Positions 2,915-42,834 of a stretch of DNA of 42,834 nucleotides are shown piece by piece. A program made the translations under genes and the position numbers. Every line of letters begins with the position of its first letter. Position 1 is the first letter of the stretch. The DNA comes from an uncultured Nitrospirota bacterium (GTDB lineage Bacteria; Nitrospirota; Nitrospiria; Nitrospirales; UBA8639). The DNA lies in assembly GCA_937139405.1 (NCBI GenBank), contig CAKZPV010000035.1, positions 1-42,834 on the forward strand. The letters run 5' to 3'. The notes under the pieces are model-generated. The model was not told the origin of the DNA. It saw only the letters and a list, made by a program, of their open reading frames with translations, and made no database searches.

Positions 2915-3261
2915 GATTTAGCCTTTGCACGGGTGAGGGCAGCGGTTGCTCTTTCTAAGGCAGACGTTAAAGCGCGAATTTTGTCACGATATTTGTAATG
3001 TGAATTACAAGCCTCAACGATGAATTTTGCATCGTGCTTGCTTAGGATTCCTGATAAGTTAAACCCGCATCCCCCAGTGTCGGGAGCGTGTTCCGAAAGA
3101 ACCCTATGATAGCTTCCTATGCCACCCTTAATTTCAAAGTAGGGGTTTCCAAAATCACTGTCTGGCGTATGGACTTGAGTTAGCTTGAAAGGTAGTGGAG
3201 TGTGCTTGATAGTGTCCATCTGCTCTTGTGGCGGGTTCATTGGGTCTGGTGAATGTGACAT
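2911..3261 (-). CDS. hypothetical early protein, 116 residues
   Basis: I take ATG 3261 (MSHSPDPMNPP) as the start, not the longer 136-residue frame. It overlaps the upstream stop as TAATG and has the sequence AGGAGG seven bases ahead, supplied by the end of the upstream gene. The protein has a central GGIGSYHRVLSEHAPDTGGCGFN section and an alanine/lysine-rich C-terminal helix. The middle resembles small phage proteins that describe an HDAKFIVEACNSH motif at the C-terminal side; function unknown. Confidence 0.65.
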   Translation of the reverse strand: MSHSPDPMNPPQEQMDTIKHTPLPFKLTQVHTPDSDFGNPYFEIKGGIGSYHRVLSEHAPDTGGCGFNLSGILSKHDAKFIVEACNSHYKYRDKIRALTSALERATAALTRAKAKS

Positions 3262-3281
3262 TATGCTGCCTCCTGCTTTAC
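3261..3281 (-). repeat. 21-bp direct repeat, copy A (partner at 4150-4170)
   Basis: Bases 3261-3281 and 4150-4170 are identical; flanking bases differ on both sides. On the minus strand each copy encodes the C-terminal residues VKQEAA plus stop and contains AGGAGG placed to serve the next gene. The two copies bracket the alanine-repeat gene. Confidence 0.9.
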
Positions 3282-4148
3282 TGGCAGAGGCCAGTCTTCG
3301 GGTTCTTTTTCTGACAACCATTGAATCAGACGATTGAATTGCCAGTCTTCTTCATCATCCCTAGCAGCATCCCTAGCAGCAGCCGAAGCAGCATCCCAAG
3401 CAGCATCCCTAGCAGCAGCCCAAGCAGCATCCCAAGCAGCATCCCTAGCAGCAGCCGAAGCAGCATCCCAAGCAGCATCCCTAGCAGCAGCCCAAGCAGC
3501 ATCCCTAGCAGCATCCCTAGCAGCAGCCCAAGCAGCAGCCGAAGCAGCAGCCGAAGCAGCAGCCGAAGCAGCATCCCTAGCAGCATCCCTAGCAGCATCC
3601 CTAGCAGCATCCCTAGCAGCAGCCGAAGCAGCATCCCAAGCAGCATCCCTAGCAGCAGCCCTAGCAGCAGCCCAAGCAGCAGCCCTAGCAGCATCCCTAG
3701 CAGCAGCCCAAGCAGCAGCCGAAGCAGCAGCCGAAGCAGCAGCCCAAGCAGCATCCCTAGCAGCAGCCGAAGCAGCATCCCTAGCAGCAGCCCAAGCAGC
3801 ATCCCTAGCAGCAGCCGAAATCTCGCCACGAGCGTATTGCCGTGCTGCTATTATTGTTTTTCTTGGCGCATCAGAATCGCCGGTCTTTTCGTATATATGA
3901 ATAACTCGCGCAGCACAGTCAGCCATCCATAACCGTAACCGTCTTTCAATATCTTCATTATTTCTCGCCAGTGCGGACGCCACCCAAACTAAATTATCGA
4001 ATGTAATTCCAGCATCTTTCGCACTGGCGGCACCTATCTTGTTGCCGTTCCATTTTTTTTTGCCGCCTAATTTGCGAACAACTTTTTTGAAATCATCTTC
4101 GCAGGGTGAAAGTGCTTTTACTTCGTCGTATGTGAGTGCAATAGTCAT
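3261..4148 (-). CDS. alanine-rich tandem-repeat protein (putative immunity-protein-like)
   Basis: 295 residues. The N-terminal 100 residues are ordinary (MTIALTYDEVKALSP, then a YARGEISAAA join). Residues about 110-265 are 38 repeats of four residues of the type AARD / AAWA / AASA, and a short unique C-terminus ends in VKQEAA. Proteins with an ARQYARGEIS stretch followed by A-rich repeats are often annotated as putative immunity proteins (Imm5-like), a name with little experimental support. The repeat should form a long alanine-rich helix. The gene is flanked by 21-bp direct repeats that carry the ribosome site of the following gene. Confidence 0.7.
   Translation of the reverse strand: MTIALTYDEVKALSPCEDDFKKVVRKLGGKKKWNGNKIGAASAKDAGITFDNLVWVASALARNNEDIERRLRLWMADCAARVIHIYEKTGDSDAPRKTIIAARQYARGEISAAARDAAWAAARDAASAAARDAAWAAASAAASAAAWAAARDAARAAAWAAARAAARDAAWDAASAAARDAARDAARDAARDAASAAASAAASAAAWAAARDAARDAAWAAARDAAWDAASAAARDAAWDAAWAAARDAAWDAASAAARDAARDDEEDWQFNRLIQWLSEKEPEDWPLPVKQEAA
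3359..3814 (-). repeat. 38 tandem copies of a 12-bp unit
   Basis: Exactly 38 units of the form CC(CT/GA/CA)AGCAGCA(T/G) are consecutive without any indel. Only bases 3-4 and 12 of the unit vary, giving at most six unit types, which on the minus strand change D, S or W and A. All units keep frame. The lack of indels and near-perfect identity suggest recent expansion by slippage or unequal recombination. Confidence 0.95.
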
Positions 4149-4503: not shown

Positions 4504-4561
4504 TAGGAGTAACGTAATGGGCATTAACACATTAGTCAACTAAATAATGGGCATTAACACA
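4504..4561 (-). promoter_or_regulatory. PL promoter with operators OL1 and OL2
   Basis: On the minus strand TTGACT (4539-4534), a 17-bp spacer and TACGTT (4516-4511) make a promoter starting near 4504. Two copies of TGTGTTAATGCCCATTA lie at 4515-4531 (in the spacer) and 4545-4561 (upstream of -35), 30 bp apart. The same motif with one changed base occurs twice at OR in the same geometry, which identifies these as repressor/Cro operators of the leftward early operon. Confidence 0.85.
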
Positions 4562-4658: not shown

Positions 4659-5315
4659 TTAGACTTTCTCTACAACCCCAACAAAATAGCGCACTCGACC
4701 TTTTATGCTTATCTCGTCGCCATCATCGCCATTGATTTGAATTGGCAGTTGATGGTTAGGATCATTCGACTCCGGCATAAGCAGGTTGCGGCCCTCACTG
4801 TCTTGGAACAATCGCTTTACGGTTGTCTCATAAAGACCATCCGATCTGATGCGCTCAACAATGTACAGATTGCCAGGAGTAGGCGCTTCGCCAGTCTCCC
4901 ACACATCATCATAAATAAAGATCGTTCCTTCAGGAAAGCTTTTATTCATTGATGTGCCGCGAGATTGGGCGGCATGTAGTGTAATGCCTTTCATAGTGTC
5001 AGGGATAGAAATATCAAACCAAGCTTCCTCCGGCCATATTGCCGACTCTTCCCAAGCCCCCGCCTGGACGTGACCTTTTACCTGTAGAGTTCTTGTCCCT
5101 TCGTTCATAGCGTGAACCCCAAACATTACCGAAGGGTTAATATCCAGCACTTCGCATATTTTGGTAAATTTTTCCAAGGTTGGGGTGCGCTCACGCGCAA
5201 GCATGTCTCTGACGAATGTTTCCCCTAAGCCTGCCTTTAAAGAGGCCTGCTTCATATTTGTTTGCTTTTCTACGAGGGCTTCTCGTATCGCGGTTTTCCA
5301 TGCTGGTTCGCTCAT
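4659..5315 (-). CDS. cI: CI-like repressor (HTH plus S24 self-cleaving domain)
   Basis: 218 residues. An XRE-type helix-turn-helix spans residues about 18-62 (MKQASLKAGLGETFVRDMLA). The C-terminal half is an S24/LexA-type peptidase: cleavage site Ala85-Gly86 in VQAGAW, nucleophile Ser122 in GTSMNKSFPEG, and general base Lys167 in TTVKRLF. All parts needed for RecA-stimulated autocleavage are present, so the prophage should be inducible by DNA damage. It is transcribed away from cro, with operators between them. It should bind the 17-bp sites at OL and OR and keep both early operons silent. Confidence 0.92.
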   Translation of the reverse strand: MSEPAWKTAIREALVEKQTNMKQASLKAGLGETFVRDMLARERTPTLEKFTKICEVLDINPSVMFGVHAMNEGTRTLQVKGHVQAGAWEESAIWPEEAWFDISIPDTMKGITLHAAQSRGTSMNKSFPEGTIFIYDDVWETGEAPTPGNLYIVERIRSDGLYETTVKRLFQDSEGRNLLMPESNDPNHQLPIQINGDDGDEISIKGRVRYFVGVVEKV

Positions 5316-5351: not shown

Positions 5352-5409
5352 TGTGTTATTGCCCATTATTCTCTTGACAAGTGTGTTATTGCCCATTATT
5401 TGAAATGGT
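5352..5409 (+). promoter_or_regulatory. PR promoter with two operators
   Basis: TTGACA (5374-5379), a 17-bp spacer and TATTTG (5397-5402) make a strong rightward promoter. Two identical 19-bp copies of TGTGTTATTGCCCATTATT lie at 5352-5370 and 5382-5400, again 30 bp apart, one upstream of -35 and one across spacer and -10. The expected start point (5409-5410) is the cro start codon itself. The left copy lies between PR and the repressor gene and may also control the repressor promoter, which I could not place. Confidence 0.88.
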
Positions 5410-36402: not shown

Positions 36403-36429
36403 CAGTTGTTGCAAAAAACGCAACAACTG
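36403..36429. terminator. 10-bp hairpin between convergent operons
   Basis: CAGTTGTTGC (36403-36412), loop AAAAAAC, GCAACAACTG (36420-36429). It lies between the end of the rightward block and the stop of the DHFR gene. No T-run follows on either strand, so it may be a weak bidirectional terminator or protect messenger ends. Confidence 0.5.
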
Positions 36430-36431
36430 AA

Positions 36432-36824
36432 TTATTCCCGCCATATTGCATTCTGTATTTGTTTTGGCGTAAATGCATCAACTGGGAAAAAGGTATCTGC
36501 CGGGCCATCGTAGTCAATGCGTGAGAGATAAAGTTGGTCGATTTGATTGGCAAAACTGCGGTATGTTTTAGCTCCACCTATGAGGATATATTTGTCTGGT
36601 AAAGGCGTCTCAAGTTCACGATATTGGTCGGCTGTGATCAATTGTCTGCAAAGATTCCACTCAACATGTTTCAGTGGTTTATAGGTTGCCCAGCCAGCAA
36701 CCATTACCTTGCAGGTGGTGATATCTCGATACCATTTCAAATCATCCTTGTGGTGCGGCCATGGTAACATCTCCTCAAGACCAATCTGCCAGGAATTACC
36801 AACTGCACAAATTGCTGAAATCAT
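36432..36824 (-). CDS. dihydrofolate reductase
   Basis: 130 residues from ATG 36824, with AGGAG seven bases upstream; the TTG-started longer frame is less likely. MISAICAVGNSWQIGLEEML and PWPHHKDDLKWYRDIT match the N-terminus of DHFR, with the acidic substrate-binding residue in HKDDL at the place of Escherichia coli D27. YILIGGAKTYRSFANQIDQL carries the GG cofactor motif. It is shorter than the usual 155-165 residues, ending soon after the last core strand. It makes tetrahydrofolate for thymidylate and purine synthesis. No thymidylate synthase gene is present. Confidence 0.85.
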   Translation of the reverse strand: MISAICAVGNSWQIGLEEMLPWPHHKDDLKWYRDITTCKVMVAGWATYKPLKHVEWNLCRQLITADQYRELETPLPDKYILIGGAKTYRSFANQIDQLYLSRIDYDGPADTFFPVDAFTPKQIQNAIWRE

Positions 36825-36879
36825 CTTCAATCTCCTGGCGTTGTTGCTTTATGGGTGTACATAGGAGGCAGACGTAATT

Positions 36880-37080
36880 TTATTTGATCAATGGGATATC
36901 AGCATAAGTACTGTTGGAATCAAAGTTGCTGTTTAGATCAATGAAGTCATGAGCGTCGAATTGGGATGCCAACATTTTTAGAGTATGCGGCGTAAACTTT
37001 ATTCCAGCGATAGGGTCAGCACCCAGCTTAATCAAAGTCTCATTTAAGTTTTTTAGACATTCTACTACTTCTTGATTCAT
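36880..37080 (-). CDS. hypothetical protein, 66 residues
   Basis: Start at ATG 37080 (MNQEVVECLKNLNETLIKLG), inside a longer frame. Helical and acidic with no recognised domain; it belongs to the cluster behind attP. Confidence 0.5.
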   Translation of the reverse strand: MNQEVVECLKNLNETLIKLGADPIAGIKFTPHTLKMLASQFDAHDFIDLNSNFDSNSTYADIPLIK

Positions 37081-37135
37081 GGTATGCGACCTTTGCTTGT
37101 GCAGGTTCCTATTTTGTTCTAAAGGGTAGGGGGAG

Positions 37136-37339
37136 TCAATTATGTTTCTTGCGGCCACGCCGTATCGGCTTTTGGTAGCCGCAATTACCCGATACACTCA
37201 ACCAGTCCAAAAGTGAATCCATCATTTTATCAAGGTCATCTTGTGTCGCTCTAGGGCCAGCAGAAACATATTTTCGAACTGATTGGGCAACGACTTCGGC
37301 GCGTTTATAACTTTCCAATTTCCTAACCGATATGGCCAT
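37136..37339 (-). CDS. hypothetical basic protein, 67 residues
   Basis: ATG 37339 (MAISVRKLESYKRAEVVAQS) has GGAGATGG upstream. Ends with RRGRKKHN. It may bind nucleic acid because of the basic end; no family recognised. Confidence 0.55.
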   Translation of the reverse strand: MAISVRKLESYKRAEVVAQSVRKYVSAGPRATQDDLDKMMDSLLDWLSVSGNCGYQKPIRRGRKKHN

Positions 37340-37368
37340 CTTCCATCTCCTGGTATATACTATAGGGG

Positions 37369-37569
37369 TTAGGATTGGGGGTTCATCCATTCATCGCCAA
37401 CGCTGAACTCTGTACCATCGGGCCATATTTCTTTAATTTTTTCGACGCATGCGCCGCAATAGTAAGAACCAACAACACCCGATTCCATTTTATGGGTTAC
37501 CTGTTGGCGGCAATTTTCAGAAGCGCAACGCATAGTTAATCGCTGGTCACCATTCAATTTAAAAAACAT
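37369..37569 (-). CDS. small zinc-finger protein, 66 residues
   Basis: Cysteines in C(x4)C (CASENC) and YYCGACVEK place a zinc-binding site; start MFFKLNGDQRLTMRCASENC with GAGG upstream. Such small zinc proteins are common in phage early regions. Function unknown. Confidence 0.55.
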   Translation of the reverse strand: MFFKLNGDQRLTMRCASENCRQQVTHKMESGVVGSYYCGACVEKIKEIWPDGTEFSVGDEWMNPQS

Positions 37570-37592
37570 ACCTCTATTCCTCTTGGTTAGGG

Positions 37593-37730
37593 TTATTCAG
37601 TGGGTGGGTTGCAAAGTGTTATCTTCCCACATTCATCGTAATTCGACTTCATTGGAATATAGCCCAAAACAGTGAAGCCAATTGCCAGCCCCAGTATTAT
37701 TCCAACAATTGCTGCTGCTTTTTCACTCAT
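37593..37730 (-). CDS. small membrane protein, 45 residues
   Basis: MSEKAAAIVGIILGLAIGFT and VLGYIPMK give one membrane helix, then a short tail with two cysteines (ECGKITLC). Its ATG overlaps the stop of the upstream gene (ATGA). Function unknown. Confidence 0.6.
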   Translation of the reverse strand: MSEKAAAIVGIILGLAIGFTVLGYIPMKSNYDECGKITLCNPPTE

Positions 37731-38032
37731 CGTCTATCTCCATTACTGGGCTGGGGGTGGAGATTTTTTATTGCAATTTTCGCTAAATTAATGACGTTTT
37801 CATATGCCATCTCTATTGCTTCGCTTTGATCAAGTCCCATGCAATCATCATTACTTAAATCTTCCGGCAATATGAAATTGGATATATTAAGTACAGCGGT
37901 TTTTAGAATATTATTTTCACTATGTAATTTTCGTATTAATACCGCTGTCTCGTCTAACCCGGCGTCGTTATCGGCAAATGGCAGTGCATTAAGTATTTTC
38001 TCAACGCATTCATTGCTTGTGTCGATTTCCAT
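37727..38032 (-). CDS. hypothetical protein, 101 residues
   Basis: Begins MEIDTSNECVEKILNALPFA and contains a coiled-coil-like helix (LDETAVLIRKLHSENNILKT). Acidic; no recognised family. Stop overlaps the following small membrane gene by four bases. Confidence 0.55.
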   Translation of the reverse strand: MEIDTSNECVEKILNALPFADNDAGLDETAVLIRKLHSENNILKTAVLNISNFILPEDLSNDDCMGLDQSEAIEMAYENVINLAKIAIKNLHPQPSNGDRR

Positions 38033-38035
38033 CTT

Positions 38036-38221
38036 CTATTCCTCATTCCTATTACTGTCTTGGGAATGTTCTTGGCATTTTGTGTGGCGGAACGGGAATT
38101 GATTGAGATTAGAAACACCCGCCCTTGCTTCGCATAAATACCCGGCATCTAAAATGAACCCATCCGTTTCGTCTTCGATGTATTGAAGGTGTCGGCATTC
38201 GCGGCAACTCTTATCGCTCAT
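38036..38221 (-). CDS. small zinc-binding protein, first gene after attP
   Basis: Start at ATG 38221 (MSDKSCRECRHLQYIEDETD). C6xxC9 and two later cysteines (GYLCEARAG, KCQEH) suggest a zinc-ribbon. In the prophage this would be the first gene behind the restored tRNA-Lys gene. A GAGGAATAAGAAG ribosome site precedes it. Confidence 0.6.
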   Translation of the reverse strand: MSDKSCRECRHLQYIEDETDGFILDAGYLCEARAGVSNLNQFPFRHTKCQEHSQDSNRNEE

Positions 38222-38329
38222 CTTCTTATTCCTCACTTCATTACTGGCTTCACATAGACAAGCTAGGGAGGGAGAGGGGGCGACAAGAACATGAATCTTG
38301 AAACGTGAACAAAGAACAAACAGGGAAAG

Positions 38330-38568
38330 TGACTAACCCAACTATATGGGGTGACTAACCTTTCGTTATATGAATTCCAATAACGGGTTATCTGTCTGAT
38401 TCTATTTGAGAAATTTGGTGAGCCCTGACGGGTTCGAACCGTCGACCTACTGATTAAAAGTAAGACGGAATAAGGCGTAAACCTTTGAAAACATTGCATC
38501 CGGTTGACTAACCTAACCATTTTTGCCACCATTATTTTTCAATGACTTAGCCCCATGACTGACTAACC
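38330..38568. promoter_or_regulatory. attP arm region: four TGACTAACC sites
   Basis: TGACTAACC occurs at 38330-38338, 38352-38360, 38505-38513 and 38560-38568, all in one orientation, two on each side of the core. The left pair is 22 bp apart and the right pair 55 bp apart; the right pair lies in and at the end of int. I did not notice the motif elsewhere. This is the pattern of integrase arm-type sites. A 6-bp palindrome (CGTTAT/ATAACG, 38364-38385) sits between left arm and core and might bind a bending or excision factor. Confidence 0.75.
38416..38461 (-). other. attP core: 3' half of tRNA-Lys (TTT)
   Basis: On the minus strand the sequence from the anticodon loop (CTTTTAATCAG) through the T arm (CGACGGTTCGAACCCGTC) to AGGGCTCACCA is the 3' half of an alphaproteobacterial tRNA-Lys with anticodon TTT. 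The 5' half is absent. It lies 52 bp from the end of int. Integration here would restore a complete tRNA gene. Upstream of the anticodon loop the tRNA identity stops at about 38461. Confidence 0.92.
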
Positions 38569-39586
38569 TTACTACCGCTGCTTTGGAGCGCGTTTTCTGA
38601 CTAGCCGCCTTCGTATAATGTGTCACCATTGTACTTGTTTTATGGCCGGTAATCGACATAATTAATCGGTCGCTGCATCCAGCTTCTGCAAAATCTGTTG
38701 CTGACCTCTTGCGCAAACCATGTGGTTTGCAGGCCTCTGGTAATCCTGCTGTCCTGGCTGCGGCTTTAAGGATCTTCCCGGCTCTTTCCGATGATAATAT
38801 TTTACCACGCTCACCGATGAAAAATGCAATCTGGTCAATGGGTAATAAATTGATTTCTGCGGTGATATCCGGGTGTTCAAATATCTCCAGCTTATCATTG
38901 TCTGAATTGCCTGTTTCAGTCTTTTCCGGTACAACTTTAATATAGCCGCGCTTGCGGTCGTGGCGTGTCATTTTGGCAGTGTCACCCACACGTTGACCCG
39001 CATACCTTAAAAACGTGTACAGGCGGCGCTCTAGGGTCCCTGGAGCCCAATGCGCTTCGAATGTATCACATTCCTCCAGCGTCCATGCTCGCCAATCACC
39101 AGTCTTGTACATATCGATATTAGACGCAGGGTTTGTTGGGATTGCCTTGATCTTCACAGCGTAGTTTAAAAACGTTCTGAAATAGCGCATAGTGGCGTTT
39201 GCAAGGGCAGGGGTGTCTTTCATCTTTGCCTGCATAATTTCCACCATTTCAGGTGTGAGGTCTGCTAGAATGGCTTTTTCATTGCCTTTGCAAAGCGCAT
39301 CCAGTCGGCGCGAATATTCCAGCTTTGATTTTGGTTTCAGATTGCTGAATTTTGGTGATGCATAATATTGATTTAGAATCCTCGCAAATGTACCAAAGCC
39401 GTGTTCTTTTGGCTTTTCCCATTTTCGACCATATAAGGCCGCGTCATATTTAGCTGAAAATTCTGGGTGATCTGGTGCAGGCAATGGGGTTTTGAATTTA
39501 CCTCGTCGAAAGGCATACCGCCACTTTCCATGCCGGTCTTTGTATTTATTCACATATTGCAAATTGATTTCGGTCATAGGTTCCAT
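38513..39586 (-). CDS. int: tyrosine recombinase (integrase)
   Basis: 357 residues. A SAM-like core-binding part (residues about 65-160) leads to the catalytic domain with R199 (LRYAGQRVGD), H289 and R292 (KPHGLRKRSA), H315 (SITGHKTSTM) and nucleophile Y324 (VTHYTKAA). A basic N-terminus (KYKDRHGKWRYAFRRG) is the likely arm-binding domain. The attP core lies next to its 3' end. ATG 39586 or 39577 may be the start; the second overlaps the preceding stop by four bases. It integrates and, with an excision factor, excises the phage. Confidence 0.92.
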   Translation of the reverse strand: MEPMTEINLQYVNKYKDRHGKWRYAFRRGKFKTPLPAPDHPEFSAKYDAALYGRKWEKPKEHGFGTFARILNQYYASPKFSNLKPKSKLEYSRRLDALCKGNEKAILADLTPEMVEIMQAKMKDTPALANATMRYFRTFLNYAVKIKAIPTNPASNIDMYKTGDWRAWTLEECDTFEAHWAPGTLERRLYTFLRYAGQRVGDTAKMTRHDRKRGYIKVVPEKTETGNSDNDKLEIFEHPDITAEINLLPIDQIAFFIGERGKILSSERAGKILKAAARTAGLPEACKPHGLRKRSATDFAEAGCSDRLIMSITGHKTSTMVTHYTKAASQKTRSKAAVVRLVSHGAKSLKNNGGKNG

Positions 39587-42026: not shown

Positions 42027-42834
42027 TTATGTTCTGACTTCCGGTATTAAAAACTCGTCTGCTTTGAGGCCGTAGGAAGCTGCTTGAGCCTCAATAATTG
42101 TTTTGGCGTTTGCATCTGCCATGACTGCGACTTCTCGCCCTGTGCCACACTTCGCATGAATAAATTTCTGGCGACCGTGATCAGGCAAGTTAATTTCAAC
42201 CAGCCTGCCAATCTGAGGATCTTTATCCTCATCAATAATTTTCGCATCGAGTGAATTAATGATGTGATGCCATCCGAGTATCTCACAGGCTGCGGAGCGC
42301 TGATCTACATTTTCCCATGTGATCGCCATTTCTGGCGTTAAACAATCGGGCTTTTCGATCCAGTCTGCTGGTATGTTTTGACCATGCCAACAATACACAG
42401 AATACCCATCCCTAAATTTCAAGGCAGGATCATCTTCACAATGGAGTCTGGCTTCATCATCTTTTTTGATGATTTCTGGACGGTCGCTTACAATAGCAAT
42501 GCCGGGGTAAAAATACCCCCACCCGCATGTTTTTGCGAAATTGATATAGGCATGAAAATGATCTTTTTTGCCGTACTCAACGCCAATTTTTTCACCAAAT
42601 TCATAAAATGCCAACCAACTAGCATCCTGACCAGCCCAGAACCATGTATCAATAAATTTTGAGTTGGCCCAGAGATTGTCCCTGAGATTGGCCCAGAGAT
42701 TGTCCCCGAGATTGGCCCAGAGATTGGCCCCGAGATTGGCCCAGAGATTGTCCCTGAGATTGTCCCCGAGATTGGCCCAGAGATTGTCCCCGAGATTGGC
42801 CCAGAGATTGGCCCCGAGATTGTCCCCGAGATTG
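42027..42834 (-). CDS. DUF6745-type repeat protein, C-terminal part (gene spans the join)
   Basis: Continues the frame that starts at 424. From 42834 to 42665 it encodes N-L tetrapeptide repeats; from 42664 the unique part reads SKFIDTWFWAGQDASWLAFY and further GYSVYCWHGQNIPADWIEKP, the latter close to the pattern of DUF6745 C-termini. It ends VRT at 42027. A TTG at 42614 could be read as a start but the frame is open far upstream. The C-terminus is followed after 17 bp by the 42009 gene. Function unknown. Confidence 0.75.
   Translation of the reverse strand, partial: NLGDNLGANLWANLGDNLWANLGDNLRDNLWANLGANLWANLGDNLWANLRDNLWANSKFIDTWFWAGQDASWLAFYEFGEKIGVEYGKKDHFHAYINFAKTCGWGYFYPGIAIVSDRPEIIKKDDEARLHCEDDPALKFRDGYSVYCWHGQNIPADWIEKPDCLTPEMAITWENVDQRSAACEILGWHHIINSLDAKIIDEDKDPQIGRLVEINLPDHGRQKFIHAKCGTGREVAVMADANAKTIIEAQAASYGLKADEFLIPEVRT
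42665..42834 (-). repeat. 12-bp tandem repeat, right part
   Basis: About 14 units of the same 12-bp repeat as at 1-190; the last 77 bases duplicate bases 1-77. In total about 23-24 unique units are assembled. Encodes the four-residue repeats of the DUF6745-type protein. Confidence 0.95.

Follow-up and report, generated by a model that had tools for sequence, protein, structure and literature searches.

A seven-gene cluster ending in a gene for dihydrofolate reductase (DHFR) lies on the far side of a predicted phage attachment site (attP) from the integrase gene, and this layout raises the question of which promoter serves the cluster when the phage genome is circular and what becomes of its expression after integration. 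The window analysed here is the entire 42,834-nucleotide contig C35. An earlier note on this DNA proposed that integration disconnects the cluster from the leftward early promoter PL and places it behind a host tRNA-Lys promoter, such that it could be on in lysogens. The gene order on which that proposal depends is confirmed by the coordinates: on the minus strand, int (39586-38513) is followed by the 3' part of a tRNA-Lys(UUU) gene (38461-38416) and then by the cluster (38221-36432). The features considered below are collected in Table 1.

Table 1. Predicted features of the phage contig, in window coordinates.
Feature	Coordinates	Strand	Evidence or remark
Two 17-bp operator-like sites, OL/PL side	4515..4561	-	TGTGTTAATGCCCATTA twice, 30 bp apart
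CI-like repressor	4662..5315	-	PHROG 4 transcriptional repressor, E 1.4e-11
Two 17-bp operator-like sites, OR/PR side	5352..5398	+	TGTGTTATTGCCCATTA twice, 30 bp apart
10-bp perfect hairpin, CAGTTGTTGC..GCAACAACTG	36403..36429	.	-13.5 kcal/mol; between convergent cluster and late operon
Dihydrofolate reductase, short phage type, 129 aa	36432..36821	-	PF00186, E 4.5e-17; PHROG 316, E 3e-24
66-aa cluster gene	36880..37080	-	ORF
67-aa cluster gene	37136..37339	-	ORF
66-aa Cys-rich cluster gene	37369..37569	-	Weak DUF1272 match, under Pfam cut-off
45-aa cluster gene, N-terminal hydrophobic stretch	37593..37730	-	ORF
101-aa cluster gene	37727..38032	-	ORF; function unassigned in profile searches
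First cluster gene, 61 aa, Cys-rich	38036..38221	-	ORF; GAGGAA motif upstream; no family match
C-rich, G-poor rut-like stretch, before first cluster gene	38255..38332	-	C minus G = 16 in 78 nt
Putative Int arm-type site GGTTAGTCA, cluster side	38330..38338	-	
Putative Int arm-type site GGTTAGTCA, cluster side	38352..38360	-	
att core	38409..38461	-	tRNA-Lys(UUU) anticodon-loop boundary to CCA (38461-38416) plus AAATTTC
Putative Int arm-type site GGTTAGTCA, int side	38505..38513	-	
Tyrosine integrase, transcribed toward attP	38513..39586	-	PF00589, E 1.5e-13; PHROG 1 integrase, E 9e-35
Putative Int arm-type site GGTTAGTCA, int side, within int end	38560..38568	-	

The ends of C35 overlap by exactly 77 bp. 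Given that a 77-bp overlap also joins two other contigs of the same assembly, we consider C35 to be a closed circle, albeit one whose end overlap sits in a 12-bp tandem repeat that could hide lost copies. Arrays of 12-bp tandem repeats occupy positions 1-250 and 42604-42834 (one array across the contig ends, in a protein-coding region) and 3269-3900 (within the gene at 3261-4148).

Several characteristics of its sequence indicate that C35 is probably a temperate, podovirus-like phage of the Hyphomicrobiales that was misbinned into an unrelated bacterial genome. The tRNA-Lys(UUU) of the assembly's own bacterium differs in sequence from the phage core, which is also absent from the other 269 genomes of that bacterium's class. 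In contrast, the Hyphomicrobiales MAG Bse_28 (G270) shares the core, as described below, and carries, on one contig, counterparts of the structural genes of the phage that are about 70-74% identical in nucleotide sequence. The correlation of tetranucleotide signatures with the window is 0.92 for the Hyphomicrobiales MAG versus 0.76 for the assembly's own bacterium. The latter was considered as a host and rejected on the basis of its different tRNA-Lys(UUU) and the absence of a lysogen from its genome and class.

The prophage in a host tRNA-Lys gene that the earlier note envisaged did not come to light. No lysogen came from 270 genomes of the class or 395 genomes of the G270 family, nor from a search of the viral_contigs collection with the core pattern, and the only core match in genome_contigs was in the Hyphomicrobiales MAG. 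Given this outcome and the different host, we infer integration and both of its junctions. Neither the integrase nor the DHFR had a match in viral_contigs, from which the exact tRNA core was likewise absent, and a comparison of the region with phage records at the DNA level was also negative. The relatives of the capsid and endolysin in viral_contigs, all of them short or distant, lack the side of the genome with int, attP and the cluster; the phage relatives in G270 and G629 are contig fragments that stop before attP.

Two observations concern tRNA-Lys sequences in the assembly itself (G000). Its tRNA-Lys(TTT) gene is split by the 77-bp overlap over C40:50648-50725 and C49:1-77, and thus may mark a branch point, for example where an element is integrated in part of the population. 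Fragments resembling tRNA-Lys(CTT) occur outside intact genes at C3:194216, C17:929, C17:10393, C25:25689 and C32:131665, and these are possible att remnants of other elements.

The identification of attP as carrying the 3' half of tRNA-Lys, in the same direction as int and the cluster, withstood several independent tests and is well supported. An exact 45-mer, CTTTTAATC...CACCA, is found in genome_contigs only in Bse_28, where one copy resides within a complete tRNA-Lys(TTT) gene (L068) and another forms an orphan 3' half. Window positions 38404-38464 align with the complete Bse_28 gene at 96.8% identity over 62 columns (blastn). With the exact 45-mer, attP carries the 3' part of a tRNA-Lys gene that is complete in the Hyphomicrobiales MAG, as expected if integration is to rebuild the gene. 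In two related complete genomes, the sequence AAATTTC, identical to that of the phage, is native to the 3' side of tRNA-Lys, and therefore the att core extends past CCA to about 38409, an overrun of about 7-12 nt. The exchange region is located independently by the limits of an orphan copy in G310, one of these two genomes, where a small element lies between this copy and an intact tRNA-Lys gene; the orphan likewise runs from the anticodon-loop boundary through AAATTTC. Rfam models at gathering scores returned nothing, as expected for a partial tRNA. The orphan half in Bse_28 (L067:3408-3452), which has no integrase nearby, probably marks the distal boundary of a different tRNA-Lys island.

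About 50 bp separate int from the core. The four copies of GGTTAGTCA in the window are all on the minus strand and all within 38330-38568, one pair on the int side of the core, the other pair on the cluster side and none elsewhere, and these are probably Int arm sites.

The orientation of the att site relative to int is unusual. We compared 60 relatives of the integrase (24-36% identity) from Hyphomicrobiales-centred genomes, and found an intact, convergent tRNA gene downstream of 48, within about 220 bp in 46 cases, whereas the tRNA part in the window is codirectional with int; because these relatives are not mutually independent, this contrast serves as a description rather than a test. A relative that uses a tRNA-Lys gene of 86% core identity also has the convergent arrangement. 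A codirectional tRNA within 250 bp accompanies a single relative among the 60 (L104, G476), which was rejected as a precedent given that its tRNA-Ser is intact and has no second copy on the contig. In G334 (L102), the closest codirectional part of a tRNA lies at a distance of 855 bp, and this case was left out of the count. In lysogens of the convergent relatives, the tRNA reads into the back end of int. With a codirectional tRNA part, the rebuilt tRNA would instead be located at the other prophage end, reading into the cluster.

Control of the leftward genes by a repressor is plausible, given that operator-like sites flank cI. All four sites share TGTGTTA(A/T)TGCCCATTA, with two on each side of the gene, and from those at 4515-4561 leftward via int to 36432 every gene is on the minus strand. 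On the basis of these sites and the gene order, we infer a PL promoter that is silenced by CI and whose transcripts may read through into the cluster. No CI-operator-like site is present near the cluster in the window.

The gene content of the cluster offers some indication of when it might be used. Its DHFR is of a type found in lytic Rhizobium phages and is 47.5% identical to that of Rhizobium phage AF3; both proteins are short, and the AF3 gene comes after that for thymidylate synthase. Phage DHFR genes belong to nucleotide metabolism and typically act in the lytic stage, and thus the presence of this gene points to early expression in the lytic cycle more than to lysogenic conversion. None of the cluster proteins matches a PADLOC defence model. 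The cluster is like a lysogenic-conversion (moron) cluster, such as that of SfI, in being separated from int by attP, but it consists of DHFR and small unassigned genes with no recognisable effect on the host, such as a surface change or defence. The hairpin beyond DHFR lacks a clear T run, and is possibly a (bidirectional) terminator.

With these characteristics in mind, we favour, as probable if only just, an account in which the cluster forms the far end of the leftward PL operon and serves the circular genome, whereas weak read-through from the tRNA is possible in lysogens. The attP site would be embedded in this early operon, between int and the cluster, such that in the circle formed after infection or excision PL transcription would cross int and attP into the cluster. 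Recombination of the tRNA-Lys(UUU) core by the integrase would then leave int at one prophage end and the cluster at the opposite end, behind the rebuilt, codirectional tRNA-Lys. Because int and the cluster would be parted in this way, expression of the cluster would depend on whether the genome is circular or integrated. PL would drive it fully only in the circle, and expression in a lysogen would amount at most to what escapes the tRNA-Lys transcript, with Rho probably curtailing it. The claims of the earlier note that the cluster is disconnected from PL by integration, and that a rebuilt tRNA-Lys comes to lie upstream in the same orientation (at 194 nt, by our measure), follow directly from attP, which is well supported by the core match, the arm repeats and the native AAATTTC.

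What could happen in a lysogen depends largely on the 194 nt between the tRNA end (38416) and the first start codon (38221). The statement that no strong terminator is located there is true for the intrinsic type, in that the best hairpin-plus-T candidate is equalled by 27.5% of random 210-nt stretches. A composition rich in C and poor in G is preferred by Rho, and the score of the rut-like stretch is equalled by 1.2% of minus-strand windows, prior to allowing for its choice as the best of the gap. Our preference for a distal PL operon is based on this tract together with the lytic use of DHFR.

The same two features count against the proposal that the tRNA-Lys promoter reads into the cluster in lysogens, making it a lysogenically expressed operon switched by integration, and we regard this proposal as unlikely despite a number of observations that agree with it. 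The gap is without an intrinsic terminator above chance or a recognisable promoter, and a CI operator is likewise missing near the cluster. Sequences resembling promoters accompany tRNA-Lys genes of related hosts, as exemplified by TTGACC-N17-TATGTT, read by eye in G310. In addition, the opposite orientation among integrase relatives implies that the arrangement is not a default, and the cargo of the G310 tRNA-Lys element is also codirectional with its tRNA.

It is similarly doubtful that the cluster has a promoter of its own, in the gap or within its first genes, that would make it independent of integration and leave the geometry without regulatory meaning. No sigma-70-like site matching 9 of 12 positions is present on the minus strand of the gap (by an E. 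coli-type consensus, which may miss the host type), and such sites are fewer in the region than in shuffled sequences. Regardless, a consensus of this kind could overlook a promoter in a short, ordinary gap, where weak 8-of-12 matches do occur.

A more elaborate conjecture, which we consider distinctly improbable, is that this lineage inverted its att core with respect to the integrase, and that the flip was selected since recombination thereby becomes an expression switch, by which early genes controlled by CI and PL in the circle would turn into a tRNA-driven operon under growth-rate control in the lysogen. Least credible of all, and very improbable, is that the piece of tRNA is a relic or a decoy, with the phage either using another integration site or being maintained as a circular episome, which would suit a closed circle lacking host flanks and the failure to find a lysogen, but conflicts with GGTTAGTCA repeats that flank exactly the tRNA core, the tRNA genes targeted by most related integrases (48/60 with an intact tRNA downstream) and the absence of any other tRNA 3' half near int.

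Clusters split off at attP have precedents. In the Shigella serotype-converting phages SfI, SfV and SfX, as well as P22-like phages, the order is gtr genes, attP and int (PMC3636060). The attP core of the serotype-converting phages is a 46-bp portion of tRNA-thrW, and integration sends gtr and int to opposite ends (PMC3636060). The C35 arrangement is similar in having an attP with a tRNA 3' core between int and an accessory cluster that would be split off on integration, but here the tRNA is tRNA-Lys rather than thrW, the phage and host are unrelated, and it is the Shigella cargo that is a lysogenic conversion operon. In phage lambda, circularisation joins the sib element to int, and integration separates them. 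On the transcript from PL, this retroregulatory element of the b region comes after int (PMC2951348). Thus, both phages appear to carry a PL-distal element beyond int that integration detaches, although the lambda element acts on int mRNA whereas here a gene cluster is detached.

Orientations of integrase and tRNA genes have been sorted into the classes STI, OC, SIT and OD (PMC2951348), and the same paper cites Swenson et al. for the proposal of an element that is transcriptionally coupled to its own tRNA. In that survey of orientation classes int adjoins the tRNA, whereas here the neighbour would be the cargo cluster, with int at the far end. Some mycobacteriophages have attP inside the repressor gene and exhibit integration-dependent regulation. 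Recombination at attP alters phage gene expression in those phages, as we propose here, but it truncates a coding sequence there, whereas for C35 only the upstream promoter would change. Split clusters and the idea of tRNA-coupled elements are therefore already known; the variation here is a flipped att site that places cargo, and not int, behind the tRNA.

A swap of promoters is a plausible consequence of this layout. If the tRNA-Lys promoter does drive the cluster in lysogens, then a standard integration event would be turned into a promoter swap, and the switch would be readable from sequence. The flip of att relative to integrase relatives makes this idea testable in other codirectional cases, and if it is true, cargo behind a tRNA should share its direction more often than expected by chance. 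The G310 element mentioned above (L200:12306-14993; G310:C1:2522305-2524993) provides a second example of cargo placed after tRNA-Lys: the 2.6 kb between the intact tRNA-Lys(TTT) and the orphan 3' half hold three genes that read in the same direction as the tRNA, and we saw no integrase relative there.
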